From Oscillatoria sp. CS-180 (lineage in GTDB: Bacteria > Cyanobacteriota > Cyanobacteriia > Phormidesmidales > Phormidesmidaceae), in NCBI RefSeq assembly GCF_028330965.1, contig NZ_JAQMUB010000083.1, positions 1 through 64,000 on the forward strand: a DNA stretch of 64,000 nt, in the 5' to 3' direction. Made by a program: the position numbers and the translations under genes. The notes beneath the pieces are model-generated. The model had not been told where the DNA came from and did not search any database. It worked only from the letters and a program-made list of their open reading frames with translations. Position 1 is the stretch's first letter. Every line of letters begins with the position of its first letter. Shown one piece after another: positions 1,988-9,686 of the stretch.

Positions 1988-2977
1988 TTAGCCCTCTTCA
2001 GTCGTGGCTTTGACAGACCCATCACTCGTTCGGGCGATGAAAACACCGCCCAAGATTAAGGCAAACGTTAGCAGATTAACGGGGCCCAAACTTTCCGAAA
2101 AGATGAAGTAGGCAAATATCGCCGTGAGGACTGATTCCAGTAGCAGAAATACATTGACGAAAGCGGATGAAAGATATTTCAAGCTGTAGACCACCAAGCC
2201 ATGCCCCAGAGCTTCGCAGATAGCGGCCAAACACAGGACCATCAGCCACCCTGTTAAAGAGACAGGTAGAATAACCTCTTCTGTGGTTAGAACAATTGGC
2301 AGCATCACGACTGAACCAATAAAACAGCGCCAGAAGAGGATATTTTGCGAACAAATGCTGGCTCGTAGGCGCTCAATGATCAAACAGCTGGCCGCATAGA
2401 AGACGGCTGACAGCAACGCTGCTGCATCTCCGATCGCAGGCATGGTGCCCCCTATACCGAGATCAGAGACCGGGGTGGACAAATCGTTGAGACCTAACGT
2501 CAGGGCACCCATTAGAGCGATCGCCATCCCTAGCAAAAATCGCCGATTAAACCGTTGACCCAGCACCAACCAGCCCCCAAGGACTGTAAAAATGGGCGGC
2601 ATATTAGCCAGCAGAGTGGCATTGACGACGCTGGTTTGAGTGATAGACCATGTCCAAAAGAATCGCCCTACAACATGGATAACAGCAACTATCACCAACA
2701 GCAGCATGTCTTGCCGAGACAGGTTTTCTTGAGGGGGAACCGCTGTTTTGGAGTGTTCAGACCGCATTCTGCTGAGACCGCTCCAAGCCCCAAAAATCAA
2801 CGTTGCAATCCATAAGCGATTGAATAACGTTGAATTGGCGCTGATGTCATACAGCGAGATCTTGATAAAGATTGCCGTAAAGGAAAGAGAAACAAGAGCA
2901 ACGCATAGCAAAAACAGGGCTGGAACAGGAGTTTGTTTAGCCTCCAGTTCAGCCGTATTTAAATAATTACTAACCAT
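1988..2977 (-). CDS. EamA/DMT-superfamily transporter
   Basis: A 329-residue, very hydrophobic protein with about ten predicted membrane segments arranged as two five-segment halves, the layout of drug/metabolite transporters (EamA domains). The first segment is around residues 20-40 (PVPALFLLCVALVSLSF). The second half contains the typical LxEALGHGLVVYSLKYL-type region and a LLLESVLTAIFAYFIF segment, as in the YdcZ/RhaT/EamA group. GAGG lies 9 nt before the ATG. The substrate cannot be read from sequence. The gene is divergent from the HAD-dioxygenase pair and close to mysBCD, so export of a mycosporine or its precursor is possible. That is inference from location only. Confidence 0.85.
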   Translation of the reverse strand: MVSNYLNTAELEAKQTPVPALFLLCVALVSLSFTAIFIKISLYDISANSTLFNRLWIATLIFGAWSGLSRMRSEHSKTAVPPQENLSRQDMLLLVIVAVIHVVGRFFWTWSITQTSVVNATLLANMPPIFTVLGGWLVLGQRFNRRFLLGMAIALMGALTLGLNDLSTPVSDLGIGGTMPAIGDAAALLSAVFYAASCLIIERLRASICSQNILFWRCFIGSVVMLPIVLTTEEVILPVSLTGWLMVLCLAAICEALGHGLVVYSLKYLSSAFVNVFLLLESVLTAIFAYFIFSESLGPVNLLTFALILGGVFIARTSDGSVKATTEEG

Positions 2978-3734
2978 TTATAAAGACCTCATAATGCCGT
3001 GTAGTCTTGCAGCCAAGACCTACACCCTGAGATGCTTGCAGCCGTATCTTAGAAAGCGCGATCGCGCTTTCTAACCATCATCTTTGAGCTATGAACTATC
3101 GCTGCAACAATGACAAGTGACAGAGTTTGAACTGTGTACTCCTGTCAGCTCAGAGCAATTGCATAAGCGGGTTAATCCTTCATCGGAACTGAAAAGCAGA
3201 GCAAAAACCTGAATTCCTTGACGGAGCGAATCGACTGAAAATCTGTGAAAATCGATTCAGACCGCGCCGTCTCGAAAACTAACTTAATACTCAACCCATG
3301 TTTTTTCAGAGGTTTGGTCGATTGAATTTATGAAGTGTTCACATAGCCGTGAAAAGTTTGCTTTCGTCTAATCGTCCGTCCAGAAGTTAATTAATCAGTT
3401 CAGAAACCGAGAAGTACACCACGTCATCCGTCAGAATTTTTAGCAGCGGAATCACCCAACAGCTGGCTCTGTCAATTCTTTAATCAGCTTGTAATGACAA
3501 AACAATTTGAATTCAGGAAATGGTGTCAATATGAAGCAATTTTTTGAAAAATTCATCCATTCGTAGAAAAATTCATCGAGTGACATAGGTAACTGGAGCA
3601 AGCCCCTGGTAATCTTGGCAATGGTCGTATAGTGCTCCGCAAAATGCGGTTTTCAAACTGCGCAAAAAATGGAGTCATTCAAAAATGCATTTTGAAAAGG
3701 GGTCTATACAACTTGGTCATTGTAGAGGTATTGA
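2978..3734. other. 757-bp intergenic region upstream of the HAD/mys locus
   Basis: No coding sequence recognised. The stretch is AT-richer than its neighbours and separates the divergent EamA gene from the HAD gene. It holds the direct repeats and inverted repeats listed separately at 3546-3710. A mysA gene, normally next to mysB, is not here in whole or as a visible remnant in any frame. Confidence 0.6.
3546..3710 (+). promoter_or_regulatory. Putative control region of the HAD-dioxygenase-mys locus
   Basis: Two identical 12-mers GAAAAATTCATC at 3546-3557 and 3566-3577 are spaced 20 bp start to start, about two helical turns. They are followed by the small hairpin CCGCA-AAA-TGCGG (3637-3649), a near-palindrome TTCAAAAATGCATTTTGAA (3678-3696), and a possible -10 TATACA (3705-3710). 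The HAD start codon follows at 3735 with AGAGG 6 nt upstream. These elements are seen directly. Their role as operators or promoter is inference. Confidence 0.35.
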
Positions 3735-4421
3735 ATGCCAGCAATTTTATTCGGTTCCATTGGAACGATCGCAGAAACCTCGGAACTACAGAGACAGGCT
3801 TTTAATCGAGCCTTTGAACGCCACGGTTTAACTTGGCATTGGAATCGTGAAGAGTACGCTGCCCTATTGCAAAAAAGCGGTGGGCGGCAAAGAATTGCAG
3901 CGTATGGGCGATCGCTAGGACAATCGGTTGATGCCGCAGCAATTCATCAGTCCAAGTCTGAAATCTTTCAGCAGTCTATGGCTTCTGGGCAGCTCCAGCC
4001 CCGTGCTGGCGTTGTTCAAACCGTACAGGCAGCAAAACAGCACGATCTAAAAGTCGGGTTGGTGACAACGACCTCCGAATTCAACGTGCATGCCCTCCTC
4101 AAGGCTTTAGGTGACAGACTCTCGTTTGAAGATTTTGACATCGTTGTGACGTCTGCTCAGGTTCAACACGCCAAACCTGCTGCTGCTGCCTATTCGTTGG
4201 CGCTGGCACAGTTGCGTGAACAACCTGGTGAATGCCTTGCAATCGAAGACAATGTGGACGGGTTAACAGCGGCGAAATCTGCGGGTATTGCTTGCATTGC
4301 GTTTCCAGGCGCAAATACTGCGCACCACGACTTTTCGGCCAGTCTATTCAGCACAGATCATTTGGACTTTGCCACCCTGAAACAATTCTTGCCTGCGCTC
4401 AGCAGTCAACTGCGGGGCTAG
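3735..4421 (+). CDS. HAD-superfamily (CbbY/phosphoglucomutase-like) protein lacking the catalytic aspartates
   Basis: A 228-residue protein with HAD subfamily I architecture: an alpha-helical cap around residues 16-85, motif II at VGLVTTTSEFN (about 108-117), motif III lysine in HAKPAAAAY (Lys147), and motif IV AIEDNVDGLTAAKSAGI (Glu171, Asp172). The nucleophile motif, normally FDxDGT, reads FGSIGT at residues 6-11. The nucleophile aspartate is therefore Gly7 and the acid/base aspartate Ile9. It cannot work as an ordinary HAD phosphatase or mutase, so it may bind a sugar phosphate or act as a regulatory or structural partner. The next gene starts 1 nt after its stop, so the two are translationally coupled. 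AGAGG precedes the ATG by 6 nt. Confidence 0.8.
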   Translation: MPAILFGSIGTIAETSELQRQAFNRAFERHGLTWHWNREEYAALLQKSGGRQRIAAYGRSLGQSVDAAAIHQSKSEIFQQSMASGQLQPRAGVVQTVQAAKQHDLKVGLVTTTSEFNVHALLKALGDRLSFEDFDIVVTSAQVQHAKPAAAAYSLALAQLREQPGECLAIEDNVDGLTAAKSAGIACIAFPGANTAHHDFSASLFSTDHLDFATLKQFLPALSSQLRG

Positions 4422-4422
4422 G

Positions 4423-5241
4423 ATGCAGCTATCAAATGCTATTCGTGATTCAAAATCCTATTACGTTCGACCGCTCTCACCGTTTGGTGCGGAGATGATT
4501 GGATTTGATATCACGGCTATCACCTCTGAGGATGCTAAAAGGATTCGTCAGGCGCTGGCCGACCAAGGTGTGCTCGTCATTCGCCATCAAGAGGTGTCTG
4601 ATGCTGATTTTGTCAACTTCCTAAAAGCCTTAGGACCGCTGACCTTTACCACGGGGGAAACCCCCCTAGCCGATCAGCCCTGCCTCAATATCGTCAGCAA
4701 TGTGGGTCGAACGCGCCCGCCGAGAAGCGTTTTTCATACCGACACCAGCTATGTGGCTCAACCGCCTGCTTACACGGCCCTGAAAGCGATCGCCCTGCCT
4801 CAGTCGGGAGGAGAGACCCTATTTTCCAACCAATATCAAGCCTTCGAAACCTTGCCCAATCAGGTCAAAACTCAGCTTTCAAAAGCCCAAGTCCATCATG
4901 TGGTGTCGGGTCTGGACCTGACTGGTGAGCAAGAAACTGAGTGCTGGCATCCGCTCTTTCGACAACACCCGATTTCGGGCCGCACGGCACTGTTTCTGTC
5001 AACGCCAGAGCGGTGTCAGGCCATCTCTGGATTGGAGGCGACCCTAGGACACCGAGCCATTCGTGTGTTGTATAAGCATTCAATTCGGCCTCATCGCCTC
5101 TATCGCCATCGTTGGCAATCCGGCGACATTGTTATATGGGACAACCGCTGTACCATGCACCGTGCTGATCATTCCCAAGTGTTGGGCGATCGCGTTTTGC
5201 ATCGTGGGCTAGTCTCGGGCGAAGTTCCCCTAAACCCATGA
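4423..5241 (+). CDS. TauD/TfdA-family Fe(II)/2-oxoglutarate dioxygenase
   Basis: A 272-residue protein with the TauD-type metal and cosubstrate residues: His105 and Asp107 in SVFHTDTSY, the distal His246 in CTMHRADHS, and a 2-oxoglutarate-binding arginine in LHRGLVSGE (Arg261). The N-terminal part (PFGAEMIGFDIT) and GVLVIRHQEVSDADFV are typical of TauD homologues. Family members hydroxylate or oxidatively cleave small amino or sulfonated substrates. The substrate here is unknown. The gene is coupled to the HAD gene (1-nt gap) and lies 210 bp upstream of mysB in the same direction. It could therefore tailor a mycosporine, as the unrelated PhyH-type MysH does in other cyanobacteria. That role is inference. 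Confidence 0.88.
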   Translation: MQLSNAIRDSKSYYVRPLSPFGAEMIGFDITAITSEDAKRIRQALADQGVLVIRHQEVSDADFVNFLKALGPLTFTTGETPLADQPCLNIVSNVGRTRPPRSVFHTDTSYVAQPPAYTALKAIALPQSGGETLFSNQYQAFETLPNQVKTQLSKAQVHHVVSGLDLTGEQETECWHPLFRQHPISGRTALFLSTPERCQAISGLEATLGHRAIRVLYKHSIRPHRLYRHRWQSGDIVIWDNRCTMHRADHSQVLGDRVLHRGLVSGEVPLNP

Positions 5242-5451
5242 CCGGCGGATCATTTCATCGCCAACCATGATGTTGGTCGGTGCAAAGATTTGCTCTCGCC
5301 AAAACAGTTAGAAAAGACAGTCCGTGCCTTAATATTTTGTTACGATACGGGCTGTATTTCTCATGATTCCTGGGTTGAGCACTTTAAGTAAAAACCAACC
5401 CAGCCCCCTGTAGAAGTTTCTCCCTCAAGCTAATGTCCACATCGATTCAAT

Positions 5452-6405
5452 ATGGTTCGCGCTAATTCACTATTTTCCTCTCCTGAAAGTTTTTCGTCTC
5501 GTTCATCGCCCGCCAATTCAACGGTTTCAGCTGATCCCATCGAGTCTAAACAGCTTGACGAACAACCCACAGATGCTCTCTTTACAGCGTTACCTACCCC
5601 ACGGGCCGTCACGCCTATGGGCATTTTGGTAGAGCGGTTGGACGCGATCGCAGTCATGGCTGAGCAGACTCAAGCATCTGCGTCTGTGCTGATCGCCCTG
5701 CAAGAAACCCTGGCCTTGGCCTCAGGACTTGATCCGTATTTGGCAACCTGCACCACTCCCGAGACTGAAGCCCTGAAACATCTGGCTCAGAAAACAGCGG
5801 CAGAAGATTGGAGTCAGCGGTTTTCCGATCAAGAAACGATTCACCAACTTGAGCAAGAAATGCTCTCCGGTCATGTAGAAGGTCAACTGCTTGGGTTGTT
5901 TGTTCGAATGATTCGTGCCCAGCGTGTACTTGAAGTGGGCATGTTTACCGGATATTCGGCGCTGGCGATGGCAGAAGCCCTGCCGCCAGAGGGTTGTTTA
6001 ATCGCCTGCGAAATGGACGCCTATGCCGCAAAGTTTGCCCAAACCTGTTTTGCAGCCTCGCCCCACGGTCACAAAATTCAAGTCAGAGTTGCTCCGGCGC
6101 TAGACACCCTGGCTCAACTAGCCAACGAACAGCAGTCCTTCGATCTGGTCTTTATCGATGCCGACAAACGAGAGTACATCGACTATTTCAAACAGCTGAT
6201 TGACAAAAACTTGGTTCCCCCTGGTGGCTTCATCTGTGTGGATAACACTCTGCTTCAAGGTGAAGCTTACTTGCCAGCTGCTCAGCAGACGGTGAATGGA
6301 CGCGCGATCGCTGAATTTAATCGGTTTGTCGCTGCCGATGCGCAGGTCGAGCAGGTCCTATTGCCCATTCGAGATGGCTTGACTGTCATTCGCCGTAAGT
6401 ACTAA
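5452..6405 (+). CDS. mysB: Mycosporine O-methyltransferase MysB
   Basis: A class I SAM-dependent O-methyltransferase. MysB methylates demethyl-4-deoxygadusol to 4-deoxygadusol, the cyclohexenone core of mycosporines. The SAM motif LEVGMFTGYSALAMAEALP (about 195-213), FDLVFIDADKREY and the C-terminal VEQVLLPIRDGLTVIRR are characteristic of MysB, and TARPVTPLGIL-like text appears as TPRAVTPMGIL at 49-59. At 317 residues it has about 40 extra Ser/Pro-rich N-terminal residues compared with the usual 275-280, so the true start could be later. It is followed by mysC after 15 nt. The 210-bp gap upstream leaves room for its own promoter. The recognition rests on remembered MysB sequence, with high similarity. 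Confidence 0.93.
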   Translation: MVRANSLFSSPESFSSRSSPANSTVSADPIESKQLDEQPTDALFTALPTPRAVTPMGILVERLDAIAVMAEQTQASASVLIALQETLALASGLDPYLATCTTPETEALKHLAQKTAAEDWSQRFSDQETIHQLEQEMLSGHVEGQLLGLFVRMIRAQRVLEVGMFTGYSALAMAEALPPEGCLIACEMDAYAAKFAQTCFAASPHGHKIQVRVAPALDTLAQLANEQQSFDLVFIDADKREYIDYFKQLIDKNLVPPGGFICVDNTLLQGEAYLPAAQQTVNGRAIAEFNRFVAADAQVEQVLLPIRDGLTVIRRKY

Positions 6406-6420
6406 CGCGCCTTTTGATCA

Positions 6421-7758
6421 ATGCCGTCCAAATTTAACGCTCTCATCAAAACAACAGCCGCGCTTGTGCTCCTTATGCTGGCTTTGCCGTTCAACCTCTT
6501 AGTGGTCAGCACGGCCTACCTTTGGAGTTGGGTTCGCGGATCATCTCCACCAATCCATCCGACTGGTCAGCCCCAGCGAATTTTGATCACGGGCGGCAAG
6601 ATGACGAAAGCCTTACAGCTGGCGCGATCGTTTCATCAGGCAGGCCACTCTGTCGTTCTGATAGAAACTCACAAATACTGGCTGTCGGGGCATCGATTTT
6701 CACGTGCGGTTGATCGATTCTACACGGTACCGATTCCTGAACACGATCCGTCAGGGTATGTGGAGGCACTACTTAATCTTGTTCAACAGGAGAAGATCGA
6801 TGCTTTCATCCCAGTCTCTAGTCCCATTGCCAGCTACTACGATGCGATCGCGGGTGAACGCTTGGCCCCTTATTGCCAAGTCATTCACGGCTCGCCCACC
6901 GTCATCGAAACGCTGGATAACAAATATGAATTGTGTAGAAAGGCAAGTGCTTTAGGGCTGACAACTCCTAAAGCGTTTTTAATCACCCATCCACAACAAA
7001 TTCTTGAGTTTGATTTTCAAGCGGATGGCAGTCGCTATCTGTTGAAAAGCATCCGCTACGATTCAGTGTCTCGACTAGATATGACTCGACTTCCTTGTCC
7101 GGATATGGAGAGCTATGTTAGCCGTTTGCCTATCAGCGAAACAAATCCCTGGGTGATGCAAGAATTCATTAGGGGACAGGAATACTGCACCCACAGCACC
7201 GTCCGCGACGGCAAAATTCGACTTCATTGCTGCTCCAGGTCTTCACCTTTTCAGGTCAATTACGCCCACATTCACAACCCTGCAATTGATGCCTGGGTAG
7301 AAACCTTCGTGGGTGCTTTGGGCTTGACAGGGCAAATCTCTTTTGACTTCATTCAAGCCCCCAACGGTACGGTCTATCCCATCGAATGTAATCCCCGAAC
7401 CCATTCCGCAATCACCATGTTCTATAACCATTCCCAGTTAGCGGAGGCCTACCTCGAAGACGCCGAAACCCAGTCATCGATTCCTATCACTCCGCTACCG
7501 AGTAGTCGTCCGACCTACTGGTTCTACCATGAGGCTTGGCGGCTGACAGCCATAAAGTCCTGGAGTGATGTAAAGACCCGCCTCACAACCCTTTGGCATG
7601 GCACGGATGCACTCCTACAAATCGATGATCCACTCCCTTTCTTCACCGTTCCCCACTGGCAAGTCACACTGCTCTTGCTCAACAATCTGCGCCAGCTCAA
7701 GGACTGGGTCAAAATCGATTTCAATATTGGCAAACTGGTTGAACGGGGGGGCGATTAA
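6421..7758 (+). CDS. mysC: ATP-grasp mycosporine-glycine synthase MysC
   Basis: MysC is an ATP-grasp ligase that joins glycine to 4-deoxygadusol, giving mycosporine-glycine. The 445-residue protein has a hydrophobic N-terminal segment (about residues 12-37), then ILITGGKMTKALQLARSFH and ETHKYWLSGHRFS, both hallmark MysC stretches. The ATP-grasp core includes VMQEFIRGQEYCTHSTVRDG and the metal/ATP-binding SFDFIQAPNGTVYPIECNPR (about 314-333). The C terminus WVKIDFNIGKLVERGGD is conserved in the family. It sits between mysB and mysD in a tight cluster. The membrane-like N terminus is a family feature and suggests peripheral or membrane association. Confidence 0.95.
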   Translation: MPSKFNALIKTTAALVLLMLALPFNLLVVSTAYLWSWVRGSSPPIHPTGQPQRILITGGKMTKALQLARSFHQAGHSVVLIETHKYWLSGHRFSRAVDRFYTVPIPEHDPSGYVEALLNLVQQEKIDAFIPVSSPIASYYDAIAGERLAPYCQVIHGSPTVIETLDNKYELCRKASALGLTTPKAFLITHPQQILEFDFQADGSRYLLKSIRYDSVSRLDMTRLPCPDMESYVSRLPISETNPWVMQEFIRGQEYCTHSTVRDGKIRLHCCSRSSPFQVNYAHIHNPAIDAWVETFVGALGLTGQISFDFIQAPNGTVYPIECNPRTHSAITMFYNHSQLAEAYLEDAETQSSIPITPLPSSRPTYWFYHEAWRLTAIKSWSDVKTRLTTLWHGTDALLQIDDPLPFFTVPHWQVTLLLLNNLRQLKDWVKIDFNIGKLVERGGD

Positions 7759-7760
7759 CC

Positions 7761-8786
7761 GTGTCAAGATTGCGCGTGCTACATTTGACTGGCTCTGCCC
7801 AAGATAGGTTTCACCGCGACCTGTCTCGGCTTTATGCCAGAGATTGTCTGGCGGCCACGGCTGACCCGACGCGCTACGAGTTTCAGATTGCCTACATCAC
7901 ACCAGACAGGCAATGGCGATTTCCACTATCCCTGAGCGATCAGGACATTGCGACAGCAGAAACGCTGGACCTCTCAGAGGCGATCGCGCTCATCCAGTCC
8001 CTCAGGATCGATGTCGTCATCCCCCAAATGTTTTGCCTCGCGGGAATGACACTCTACCGTAACCTGTTTGACCTACTGGGCATTCCTTATGTGGGGAACG
8101 CTGGAGAGGTGATGGCGCTGACAGCTCGCAAGGACAGAGCGAAGGCGATCGCAGCCGGAGCGGGCGTCAAAGTCCCCTACGGCGAACTGCTGAAGACCTC
8201 CAATAGCCCAACCCTGAGGCCGCCTGTGGTCATTAAACCCAGCAGTGCTGATAATTCTCTGGGCGTCAGCTTGGTGAGCGACGAGCATCAATACACAGCA
8301 GCGCTACAAACGGCGTTTAGCTATGCTGACACGGTTCTAGTGGAGGAATACATTGAGCCGGGTCGAGAAGTGAGATGTGGCCTGGTGGAAAAAGAGGGTG
8401 AACTAATTGGCCTGCCGTTGGAGGAGTATCCTGTTGATGCCAAAAACCATCCCATTCGCAGTTATGGCGACAAGCTTGAGCGCAGCGAATCGGGCGATCT
8501 GGCTTTGACGCCAAAAGGCATTAACAAATCTTGGATAGTTGACCCCAGCGATTCCATCACTCCAGTCGTCCAAGCCGCAGCGAAGCAGTGCCATCAAGCT
8601 TTAGGCTGTCGTCACTACAGCCTATTTGACTTTCGGATCGATCCCCAGGGCAATCCCTATTTTCTAGAAGCTGGACTTTACTGCTCTTTTTCCCCCAGAA
8701 GCGTTATTGCTGAGATGGCGAAGTCCGCTGGCTTATCCCTCAATGAATTATTGGCAATGACCTTGAAAGCTGCCTTGAGACCATGA
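7761..8786 (+). CDS. mysD: D-Ala-D-Ala ligase-like mycosporine synthase MysD
   Basis: MysD adds a second amino acid (for example serine, giving shinorine) to mycosporine-glycine. The 341-residue protein begins with GTG, two bases after the mysC stop. It shows RVLHLTGSAQD at the N terminus, DLSRLYARDCLAATADPTRYEF, IPQMFCLAGMTLYRNLFDLL, the ATP-binding loop KPSSADNSLGVSLV (about 153-166) and the metal-binding end SLFDFRIDPQGNPYFLEAGL. These match MysD rather than Ddl of peptidoglycan synthesis. Its 3' end faces the sulfotransferase gene with only 24 bp between them. The side chain it installs cannot be predicted from this reading. Confidence 0.95.
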   Translation: MSRLRVLHLTGSAQDRFHRDLSRLYARDCLAATADPTRYEFQIAYITPDRQWRFPLSLSDQDIATAETLDLSEAIALIQSLRIDVVIPQMFCLAGMTLYRNLFDLLGIPYVGNAGEVMALTARKDRAKAIAAGAGVKVPYGELLKTSNSPTLRPPVVIKPSSADNSLGVSLVSDEHQYTAALQTAFSYADTVLVEEYIEPGREVRCGLVEKEGELIGLPLEEYPVDAKNHPIRSYGDKLERSESGDLALTPKGINKSWIVDPSDSITPVVQAAAKQCHQALGCRHYSLFDFRIDPQGNPYFLEAGLYCSFSPRSVIAEMAKSAGLSLNELLAMTLKAALRP

Positions 8787-8810
8787 AGGAGCGGGTTCAA
8801 CAGTCTCAAG

Positions 8811-9686
8811 CTACTGGTTTTCATAGCCAAAAAGCTTCATGGCATAACCACATTGGCTGCTGATTACAGATTTCAGCTCCGGAGTCAGCTGTTCTTTAAG
8901 CTCCCTAGAGGAATCGCTTTCCCGCACAAACTTGAAATCCTTATCGGCGATGCGATTGTTTTTCAAGCGACGCATAGACTCTAGAGAACAATGATCGCGA
9001 ATTATCTCTGCTCTTTCTCGATCAATATCATGGCCGAGAAAAGCTGCTATTTCTTCAATGAAGTCAACTGTTTTCAATAGTAAGTCTTCATATCGAATGA
9101 GTAGAAAATCTACGTTGTTTTCATGGGCTTTCCACGTTAGTACATTATCCTGCCAGGTTCCCCACTGATTGCCTTGGAAGATGACTTTGTTGATAGAGTC
9201 TTCCAGCTTGTATTGATCAGAGTTGTATCTCTTGAAGTAATGATGATAGGAGCGAATGACATCGAATGGATGTCTAACAATGTAAATAACTCTTCGATAT
9301 GCGAGCTTATTCTGCTGCCCTGGACGAAAAGGATATGAATTGTGAATTTTGAAAACTCTAGGCTGAGGTGATTGATCGTATAAGCCAGTTGCTAATGCAT
9401 TCAAGCCGGAATTTCGGCTTAGATCGGGTACGAAATGATCTATTTCTTTAAGCGTTTGAATACTTTCATTCGGGAAAATAATATTGAAAATGATGTTTCT
9501 GACCCAGGTATTGCCAGATTTTGGATATGAAACTAAAAAAATATCGTCTTCCGTAACTGGAAATTTCAATGAATTACCAGTTGCTTTATCTAGCAATCCA
9601 TGACCTGAACTACTCATTGTTGGCTTTTTCGGAAAAGCAGTATTTTTGACGAATTGGATGCATCGATTAGCAGCGCATTTAATCAT
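8811..9686 (-). CDS. Sulfotransferase domain protein
   Basis: A 291-residue PAPS-dependent sulfotransferase of the Sulfotransfer_1 type. The 5'-phosphosulfate-binding loop is YPKSGNTW (residues 54-61), and the 3'-phosphate-binding segment is RRVIYIVRHPFDVIRSYHHYF, split here around residues 130-150. The C-terminal half has the LLIRYEDLLLKTVDFIEEIAAFLG region typical of soluble sulfotransferases. The gene is clearly more AT-rich than mysBCD and lacks a good ribosome-binding site, which suggests a different origin. It converges on mysD. Known substrates of the family are hydroxylated small molecules, lipids or glycans, and the acceptor here is unknown. A sulfated mycosporine is possible but only a positional guess. 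Confidence 0.87.
   Translation of the reverse strand: MIKCAANRCIQFVKNTAFPKKPTMSSSGHGLLDKATGNSLKFPVTEDDIFLVSYPKSGNTWVRNIIFNIIFPNESIQTLKEIDHFVPDLSRNSGLNALATGLYDQSPQPRVFKIHNSYPFRPGQQNKLAYRRVIYIVRHPFDVIRSYHHYFKRYNSDQYKLEDSINKVIFQGNQWGTWQDNVLTWKAHENNVDFLLIRYEDLLLKTVDFIEEIAAFLGHDIDRERAEIIRDHCSLESMRRLKNNRIADKDFKFVRESDSSRELKEQLTPELKSVISSQCGYAMKLFGYENQ

Follow-up and report, generated by a model that had tools for sequence, protein, structure and literature searches.

A mysBCD cluster without mysA in Oscillatoria sp. CS-180: a probable split pathway for mycosporine-like amino acids with a candidate ring cyclase encoded in trans

Introduction

The mycosporine-like amino acid (MAA) locus described here lies in a 64,000-nucleotide stretch of DNA from Oscillatoria sp. 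CS-180 (the window), which forms the left end of a 149,552-base contig in an assembly of 6.53 Mb and 102 contigs. In this locus mysB, mysC and mysD stand together beside genes for a haloacid dehalogenase (HAD)-family protein and a TauD/TfdA-family dioxygenase, and mysA, the gene for the ring cyclase, is missing. A similar separation is known from Halothece sp. PCC 7418/Aphanothece halophytica, in which the mysBCD operon lies apart from mysA; expression of this mysA (PCC7418_1590) with the mysB-D operon (PCC7418_1078 to 1076) in Synechococcus yielded mycosporine-2-glycine (PMC12981126), and tags 1590, 1078 and 1077 appear also in PMC9374696. For Hyella patelloides and other Pleurocapsales a 'deletion' of mysA has been reported, leaving mysBC without mysA and a mysA-like gene of unknown role elsewhere (PMC8472315). 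In Nostoc sp. UHCC 0926, whose pathway genes are discontiguous, a TauD-type enzyme named MysI was proposed to act in palythine formation (PMC10510106). According to a 2025 preprint based on GATOR-GC, HAD and TauD/TfdA genes are a conserved part of the MAA clusters found in Actinomycetota, Pseudomonadota and Bacillota but are not present in Cyanobacteriota; the preprint also refers to unpublished heterologous experiments that led to palythines (PMC11888242). Apart from PMC12981126, these papers are cited from excerpts, as are PMC9918943 and PMC7693272 below.

The window shares with Halothece the separation of mysBCD from mysA, with Nostoc sp. UHCC 0926 a TauD/TfdA-family enzyme in a discontiguous MAA pathway, and with the GATOR-GC clusters a HAD gene adjoining that of TauD. 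MysI is reported always to stand beside MysF and a glycine-specific MysE (PMC10510106), whereas the window TauD stands beside the HAD; the two are likened here by family. In contrast to the account in the excerpts of PMC11888242, the pair was found here in six cyanobacterial genomes; in these the HAD has lost the nucleophile.

Results

An earlier note on this DNA had reported mysB, mysC and mysD as adjacent with no mysA in the window, and had suggested that the ring core might come from elsewhere in the genome, a question for a whole-genome mysA search. Both observations held, in that the three genes are adjacent and intact, with open frames over 5452-8786, and the window contains no gene of the 3-dehydroquinate (DHQ) synthase family. 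In the whole genome, three matches to this family exceeded the cut-off: AroB (contig C44), an EboD-like protein (C19), and a 608-residue sugar-phosphate cyclase (C49:60725-62551), here called SPC-L, which carries an additional domain at its N-terminus and a distinctive motif, GPSPRTCCDG. No canonical or type II cyclase was found in the assembly by this family search, and SPC-L, as the best candidate for MysA, lends support to a core made elsewhere in the genome. The arrangement that the note had set against its own proposal, a mysA beside a second mys cluster, was not encountered: the genome has a single MysC, and no mys gene was seen when the frames around SPC-L on C49 were inspected by eye.

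SPC-L is a DHQ synthase-fold cyclase that has a demethyl-4-deoxygadusol synthase (DDGS) structure as its best match. The A. variabilis DDGS structure 5tpr was the best sequence match for the C-terminal two thirds of SPC-L (E 2.5e-80), and also the best PDB match for the predicted fold of a close orthologue, L047 (E 4.6e-26, TM-score 0.84 on target). It is not a canonical MysA. Identity to canonical MysA is 38%, against a canonical typing range of 62-100% in 49 genomes, and SPC-L carries IDAGPSPRTCCDGFGYKNLFGAYH where the canonical (type I) proteins have IDAxxAIKVAVNHxKLKNRLGAYH; the corresponding motif of the type II proteins, which are of about 450 residues, is IDAGPSPRTC[TV]NG. Across SPC-L proteins the motif reads IDAGPSPRTCCDGFG[YF]KNL, with V for I in 2 of 43 rows. 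The three MysA-like types separate in the tree, with SPC-L and type II as sisters (99, starred); the tree, a 'quick' one like the others used here, was built after 10 near-duplicate SPC-L rows had been removed. The extra N-terminus comprises about 180 residues and is mostly helical as predicted on L047, whose residues 4-144 (mean pLDDT 81) are modelled as helices together with a tail of low prediction quality. No Pfam family exceeded the cut-off for this domain in SPC-L, and no fold relatives were found for it in L047 (Foldseek best E 1.3, VIA Z at most 3.1), which does not show that the fold is new.

The split arrangement was compared with those of the described strains. In genome G443, SPC-L lies at 1,742,864-1,744,627, and mysB, mysC and mysD lie at 1,175,634-1,179,261 on the minus strand. 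We take G443 to be Halothece sp. PCC 7418, and if so the Halothece mysA is of the SPC-L type. G443 agrees with the published Halothece tags in strand and gene order and also in spacing, which by our own arithmetic is about 1.1 kb for each tag; because of this fit, a split arrangement with SPC-L as mysA most likely has functional support already, and we infer that PCC7418_1590 is SPC-L. Unlike the window, G443 gave no match to the HAD or to TauD in the regions inspected on either side of mysBCD (1162000-1201800) and of SPC-L (1736000-1752000), and its MysD belongs to another clade (39% identity to that of the window). The H. patelloides genome contains SPC-L (L048) and, elsewhere, mysBC with mysD (L107); unlike the window, it shows no such HAD or TauD at the thresholds used, and has a transporter and a GNAT gene between mysC and mysD.

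SPC-L was found in at least 42 loci, of which 33 are cyanobacterial, 5 are from Pseudomonadota (Halomonas, Haliea, Halioglobus) and 4 are from Bacteroidota; the scan used two N-terminal patterns, so 42 is a lower bound, and many of the loci end at contig ends. In 11 of the 42, representing all three phyla, SPC-L either adjoins mysB, mysC or mysD or is separated from one of them by a single gene. In the nine genomes of Pseudomonadota and Bacteroidota, the MysA-like protein encoded next to mysBC(D) or close by is SPC-L, and canonical MysA was not found; these loci were located through SPC-L, so that they give no frequency for other cyclases in that place. MysC is present in 18 of the 42 SPC-L genomes, once as a fragment, and no match to canonical MysA above 40% identity was obtained in 43 SPC-L genomes, that of the window included.

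A wider view came from 388 cyanobacterial genomes, typed by identity and frame length with part of the sequences read: canonical MysA was present in 49, type II in 12 and SPC-L in 32 (one with type II too), and two were untyped. Canonical MysA and SPC-L never occurred together (0/388; Fisher P 0.02, uncorrected for relatedness). MysC at E ≤ 1e-60 accompanied canonical MysA in 48 of 49 genomes and type II in 11 of 12, and was found in 6 of the 32 SPC-L genomes; the genome that carries type II in addition to SPC-L (G076, identical to G107) has a MysC fragment just under the threshold. On this count we gave up the assumption that MAAs are made wherever SPC-L is present. Since 26 of the 32 cyanobacteria that carry it lack a full MysC at this threshold, SPC-L is not purely a mys enzyme, and judging from this distribution it probably has a further role. 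A DUF6492-like gene follows SPC-L at L004:8726-11579, in 29 of the 42 loci and in the window's genome, the family being called on the protein of the latter and by BLAST on the others. This pairing also occurs in genomes without mysC and suggests a second SPC-L product.

Several other arrangements were seen among cyclase loci. A second O-methyltransferase gene, of Methyltransf_2 type, follows mysC in SPC-L cyanobacteria at L017, L018, L019, L109, L110, L111 and L112, some of which also have a sodium:solute symporter. The SPC-L of Oscillatoriales RM2_1_1 (L136:7834-9605) is in two overlapping frames, representing a pseudogene or a sequencing error. At L159:6545-9892 the second gene upstream of a mysC-like gene encodes an EEVS-like cyclase (VDAAIGAKTAVNF, cf. 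ValA), and all that separates the two is a distant mysB-like gene (29%); this is possibly another cyclitol pathway.

The interval between tauD and mysB looks like an empty mysA slot, because two related clusters carry mysA there. The order is HAD-TauD-mysA-mysB-mysC in G344 (L145; type II mysA) and HAD-TauD-mysA-mysB-mysC-mysD in G187 (L148), and the window has the same order minus mysA. The G344 cluster runs to a contig end, and a second contig holds another mysC piece and mysD; in G182 and G306 HAD-TauD is divergent from mysABCD. The slot and its flanking genes all lie inside one contig. When 5150-5700 and 2950-3760 were searched for remains of mysA, nothing beyond chance-level matches emerged, the best tblastn match in the slot covering 11 residues at E 0.08. 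In the trees, window MysC and MysB are nearest in path to those partnered with type II MysA, with an SH-aLRT of only 90 for the MysC grouping; for this reason the lost mysA may, with moderate support, have been of type II. MysD gave a mixed picture, its nearest path leading to a type I-paired MysD on a Nostoc HK-01 plasmid and its highest identity being to MysD of G344. Next to the slot, the N-terminus of window MysB (5452-5600) is about 50 residues longer than in most relatives. The mysB gene of G306 (L149:3889-4532) consists of two overlapping frames, again a pseudogene or a sequencing error.

Within the order (63 genomes), MysC was found in ten, the window's included. Six of the other nine have a canonical MysA of 416-445 residues directly before mysB, and the remaining three, of genus g10, have in that position an SPC-L orthologue of 65-67% identity. 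SPC-L is present in four of five other sampled congeners and MysC in none of them, and SPC-L therefore fits an older resident of the genome and the cluster an addition. Late arrival of the set into an SPC-L genome, followed by loss of its own mysA, explains this distribution with no extra steps; retention of the set in this species alone would be an alternative origin.

The degenerate HAD and the TauD dioxygenase of the earlier note were confirmed. The nearest solved structure to the HAD is CbbY, from which it differs in having neither the nucleophilic Asp of motif I nor its partner (FGSIGT as compared to FDVDGT), so that it lacks motif I of a CbbY phosphatase; the VTTTS, KP and IED stretches of motifs II-IV are retained. 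Fifteen HADs of this mys type, from three phyla, all read G[SG]IG in motif I, whereas all of 20 ordinary CbbY proteins read FDVDGT, and the tree unites the 15 (SH-aLRT 100) and keeps them separate from the 20. Across the mys type, motifs II to IV have for the most part been retained, L148 reading IEN for IED. Since the nucleophile has been lost in members from three phyla, a simple phosphatase role of the HAD is unlikely. Genes for 14 of the 15 lie within two genes of mysA, mysB, mysC, mysD or SPC-L; the fifteenth (G104, L133) adjoins TauD, with mysBC elsewhere in that genome.

The only HAD searches not begun from SPC-L genomes were those of the class and of the order, the latter finding the window alone. 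In the class search (388 cyanobacterial genomes, E ≤ 1e-34), mys-type HADs were found in five genomes, the window's included, all in mys clusters with an adjacent TauD, at a threshold too strict to pick up HADs with the divergence of the Haliea ones (32-33%). A sixth match, in G353 (L160_5), was rejected as an ordinary CbbY with FDVDGT in a stretch without mys genes. TauD adjoins the HAD in all six cyanobacterial genomes in which a mys-type HAD was found. The tie between the HAD-dioxygenase pair and mys biology drawn by the earlier note is thus borne out across the class (5/5) but not within the order, where the window's genome alone has the TauD (1/63). The pairing itself is already known; what is new here is that cyanobacteria have it and that the HAD has lost its nucleophile. 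The HAD is not required, because five SPC-L cyanobacteria with full mysBC regions (G064, G075, G081, G082, G086) show no HAD of this kind in the regions read. Among the papers listed by a word search of the literature, ranked by the number of words matched, none combined haloacid dehalogenase with mysD in mycosporine clusters, and PMC11888242, which uses other gene names, shows that such searches miss relevant work. In two Halomonas genomes HAD-mysD lies apart from mysBC-SPC-L (L134:8050-9832, L135:3716-5646). Each of five congeners (G002-G006) has an ordinary CbbY-like match at E 1.2e-26 or better; the window's genome (G000) has no CbbY-like match at E ≤ 1e-25 besides the HAD lacking its nucleophile.

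The HTD, H and R residues of the window TauD align by eye with those of TauD structures. It resembles MysI in belonging to the TauD/TfdA family, in its Fe(II)/2-oxoglutarate ligands and in its linkage to mys genes. Its neighbours are the HAD and, across the slot, mysBCD; neither MysF nor MysE is adjacent (the genome was not searched for MysE). A search for MysI on plasmids gave TauD matches all below 60% identity, and the 15 listed are non-cyanobacterial. The 'unusual mycosporine' of the earlier note is not needed, a palythine-type product being the simpler expectation.

The locus was also examined for signs of decay by counting changes of the window at columns invariant elsewhere (Table 1 gives the genes). 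The counts were 1 of 54 columns for MysB and 1 of 72 for MysC (33 rows each), 0 of 41 for MysD (24 rows) and 1 of 28 for the HAD (13 rows), each inside the range of the other rows; mysBCD and the HAD show no decay. For TauD the window had 7 of 134 changes and the others 2 to 6, in an alignment of six rows only. Not entered in these counts were 11 loci excluded by name, together with L077, the CbbY L160_5 and short fragments. The earlier note had also considered the flanking exporter and sulfotransferase. Relatives of the sulfotransferase were found in none of 46 mys-bearing loci, and its candidacy as a tailoring enzyme was dropped. Relatives of the EamA exporter were found in two of the 46, one within the mys operon of G411 (L158, 39%) and the other, a weak one (24%), near a different mys operon; the case for the exporter is weak. 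The 46 loci are not independent, as two contigs are counted twice and some genomes contribute two stretches.

Table 1. Genes and intervals of the mys locus and its flanks, in window positions.
Feature	Position	Strand	Basis or remark
EamA-family exporter	1988..2977	-	Pfam/NCBIfam EamA; pathway membership uncertain
CbbY-like HAD without motif-I nucleophile (mys-associated pseudo-HAD)	3735..4421	+	Pfam/NCBIfam HAD_2; motif I FGSIGT
TauD/TfdA Fe(II)/2-oxoglutarate dioxygenase	4423..5241	+	Pfam/NCBIfam TauD; likely palythine-type tailoring
Empty mysA slot, tauD to mysB	5242..5451	.	mysA fills slot in L148 (type I) and L145 (type II)
mysB, O-methyltransferase	5452..6405	+	Pfam/NCBIfam Methyltransf_3
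mysC, ATP-grasp ligase (glycine addition)	6421..7758	+	Pfam/NCBIfam 'PRK06849' protein (MysC-like)
mysD	7761..8786	+	Pfam/NCBIfam D-Ala-D-Ala-ligase-like protein (MysD-like)
Sulfotransferase, probably outside the set	8811..9686	-	Pfam/NCBIfam Sulfotransfer_1

Discussion

We regard it as fairly probable that the window holds a working HAD-TauD-mysBCD cluster for MAA synthesis, which has lost mysA from its slot and has its ring made in trans by SPC-L. This proposal builds on features that the sequence establishes, these being the gene content, the slot, the lack of a canonical or type II cyclase in the assembly, the linkage of SPC-L to mys genes in three phyla, and the loss of the HAD nucleophile. 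SPC-L is proposed to convert sedoheptulose 7-phosphate to demethyl-4-deoxygadusol, which MysB would methylate; MysC would then add glycine and MysD a second amino acid. TauD would oxidise an amino-acid side chain to give a palythine-type imine, and the nucleophile-less HAD would assist without phosphatase chemistry. The product of the locus and the roles of TauD and the HAD in it are what we infer from these relationships. Of the earlier interpretation, the core from elsewhere and the HAD-TauD link survive, and the sulfotransferase does not.

Several observations weigh against a working split pathway. At positions adjacent to the active site, SPC-L has R for the K, D for the N and L for the R of canonical MysA, and most SPC-L cyanobacteria are without MysC at E ≤ 1e-60 (26 of 32, or 25 if the G107 fragment is counted). 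The link between G443 and Halothece comes from inference that includes gene order and spacing, not from a name, and the support drawn from PMC12981126 presupposes a host that makes no core unless given mysA. In a survey, scattered mys genes correlated with no detectable MAAs, and Synechocystis PCC 6803 is described as making MAAs without mysA (PMC9918943). In the MysB, MysC, MysD and HAD trees the window sits on a longer branch than most of its neighbours, which could reflect relaxed constraint, the MysB branch of G239 being longer still.

The long branches, the non-producing strains with scattered genes (PMC9918943) and the absence of full MysC from 26 of 32 SPC-L genomes would all fit a relic, in which mysA was deleted, SPC-L serves another pathway with its frequent DUF6492-like neighbour, and no MAA is made; the window TauD is also the most changed of the six rows at otherwise invariant columns. 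We consider such a dead end unlikely, as the frames have no stops, invariant columns are kept in MysB, MysC, MysD and the HAD, and SPC-L is the MysA-like protein near mysBC(D) in nine Pseudomonadota and Bacteroidota genomes where canonical MysA was not found. It is improbable that the core is formed without any MysA, by a shikimate branch in which AroB (3-dehydroquinate) or the EboD-like protein feeds a ring to MysB. Both genes are in the genome, the shikimate pathway has been linked to MAAs in A. variabilis (PMC7693272), and the Synechocystis report points the same way. AroB is, however, a general shikimate enzyme present also where MysC is not, and annotated mys loci have no AroB or EboD best match beside the mys genes. 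The EboD-like gene adjoins a UbiA-like gene, as does the EboD gene in the ebo cluster. That a canonical or type II mysA is hidden in an assembly gap seems very improbable: the assembly is in 102 contigs, but completeness is 100, the slot lies inside a contig, and canonical MysA and SPC-L occur together in none of the 388 genomes, although one has type II with SPC-L.

Beyond the pathway with SPC-L acting in trans, a more extended reading would join these strands, and we hold it as doubtful. In most cyanobacteria that carry it, the SPC-L lineage would make a non-MAA, perhaps glycosylated, cyclitol with DUF6492, and it would have been recruited as MysA where mysBC arrived, which would have allowed the original mysA to disappear, as in the window; the HAD would bind phosphate and Mg and hold or hand over the phosphorylated ring intermediate of the ATP-grasp ligases.

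These results offer a testable answer to the recurring puzzle of mysBC clusters 'without mysA', namely to look for SPC-L. A published survey used a 45% identity cut-off to established MysA (PMC10510106), which would miss SPC-L because it is only 35-40% identical to canonical MysA. The results also extend the HAD-TauD MAA clusters to Cyanobacteria. A split MAA pathway, in which an unusual ring enzyme is probably supplied in trans, explains most of the locus itself; more surprising are the product of SPC-L where a full MysC is missing (26 of 32 cyanobacteria), and a HAD without its nucleophile in sunscreen synthesis.

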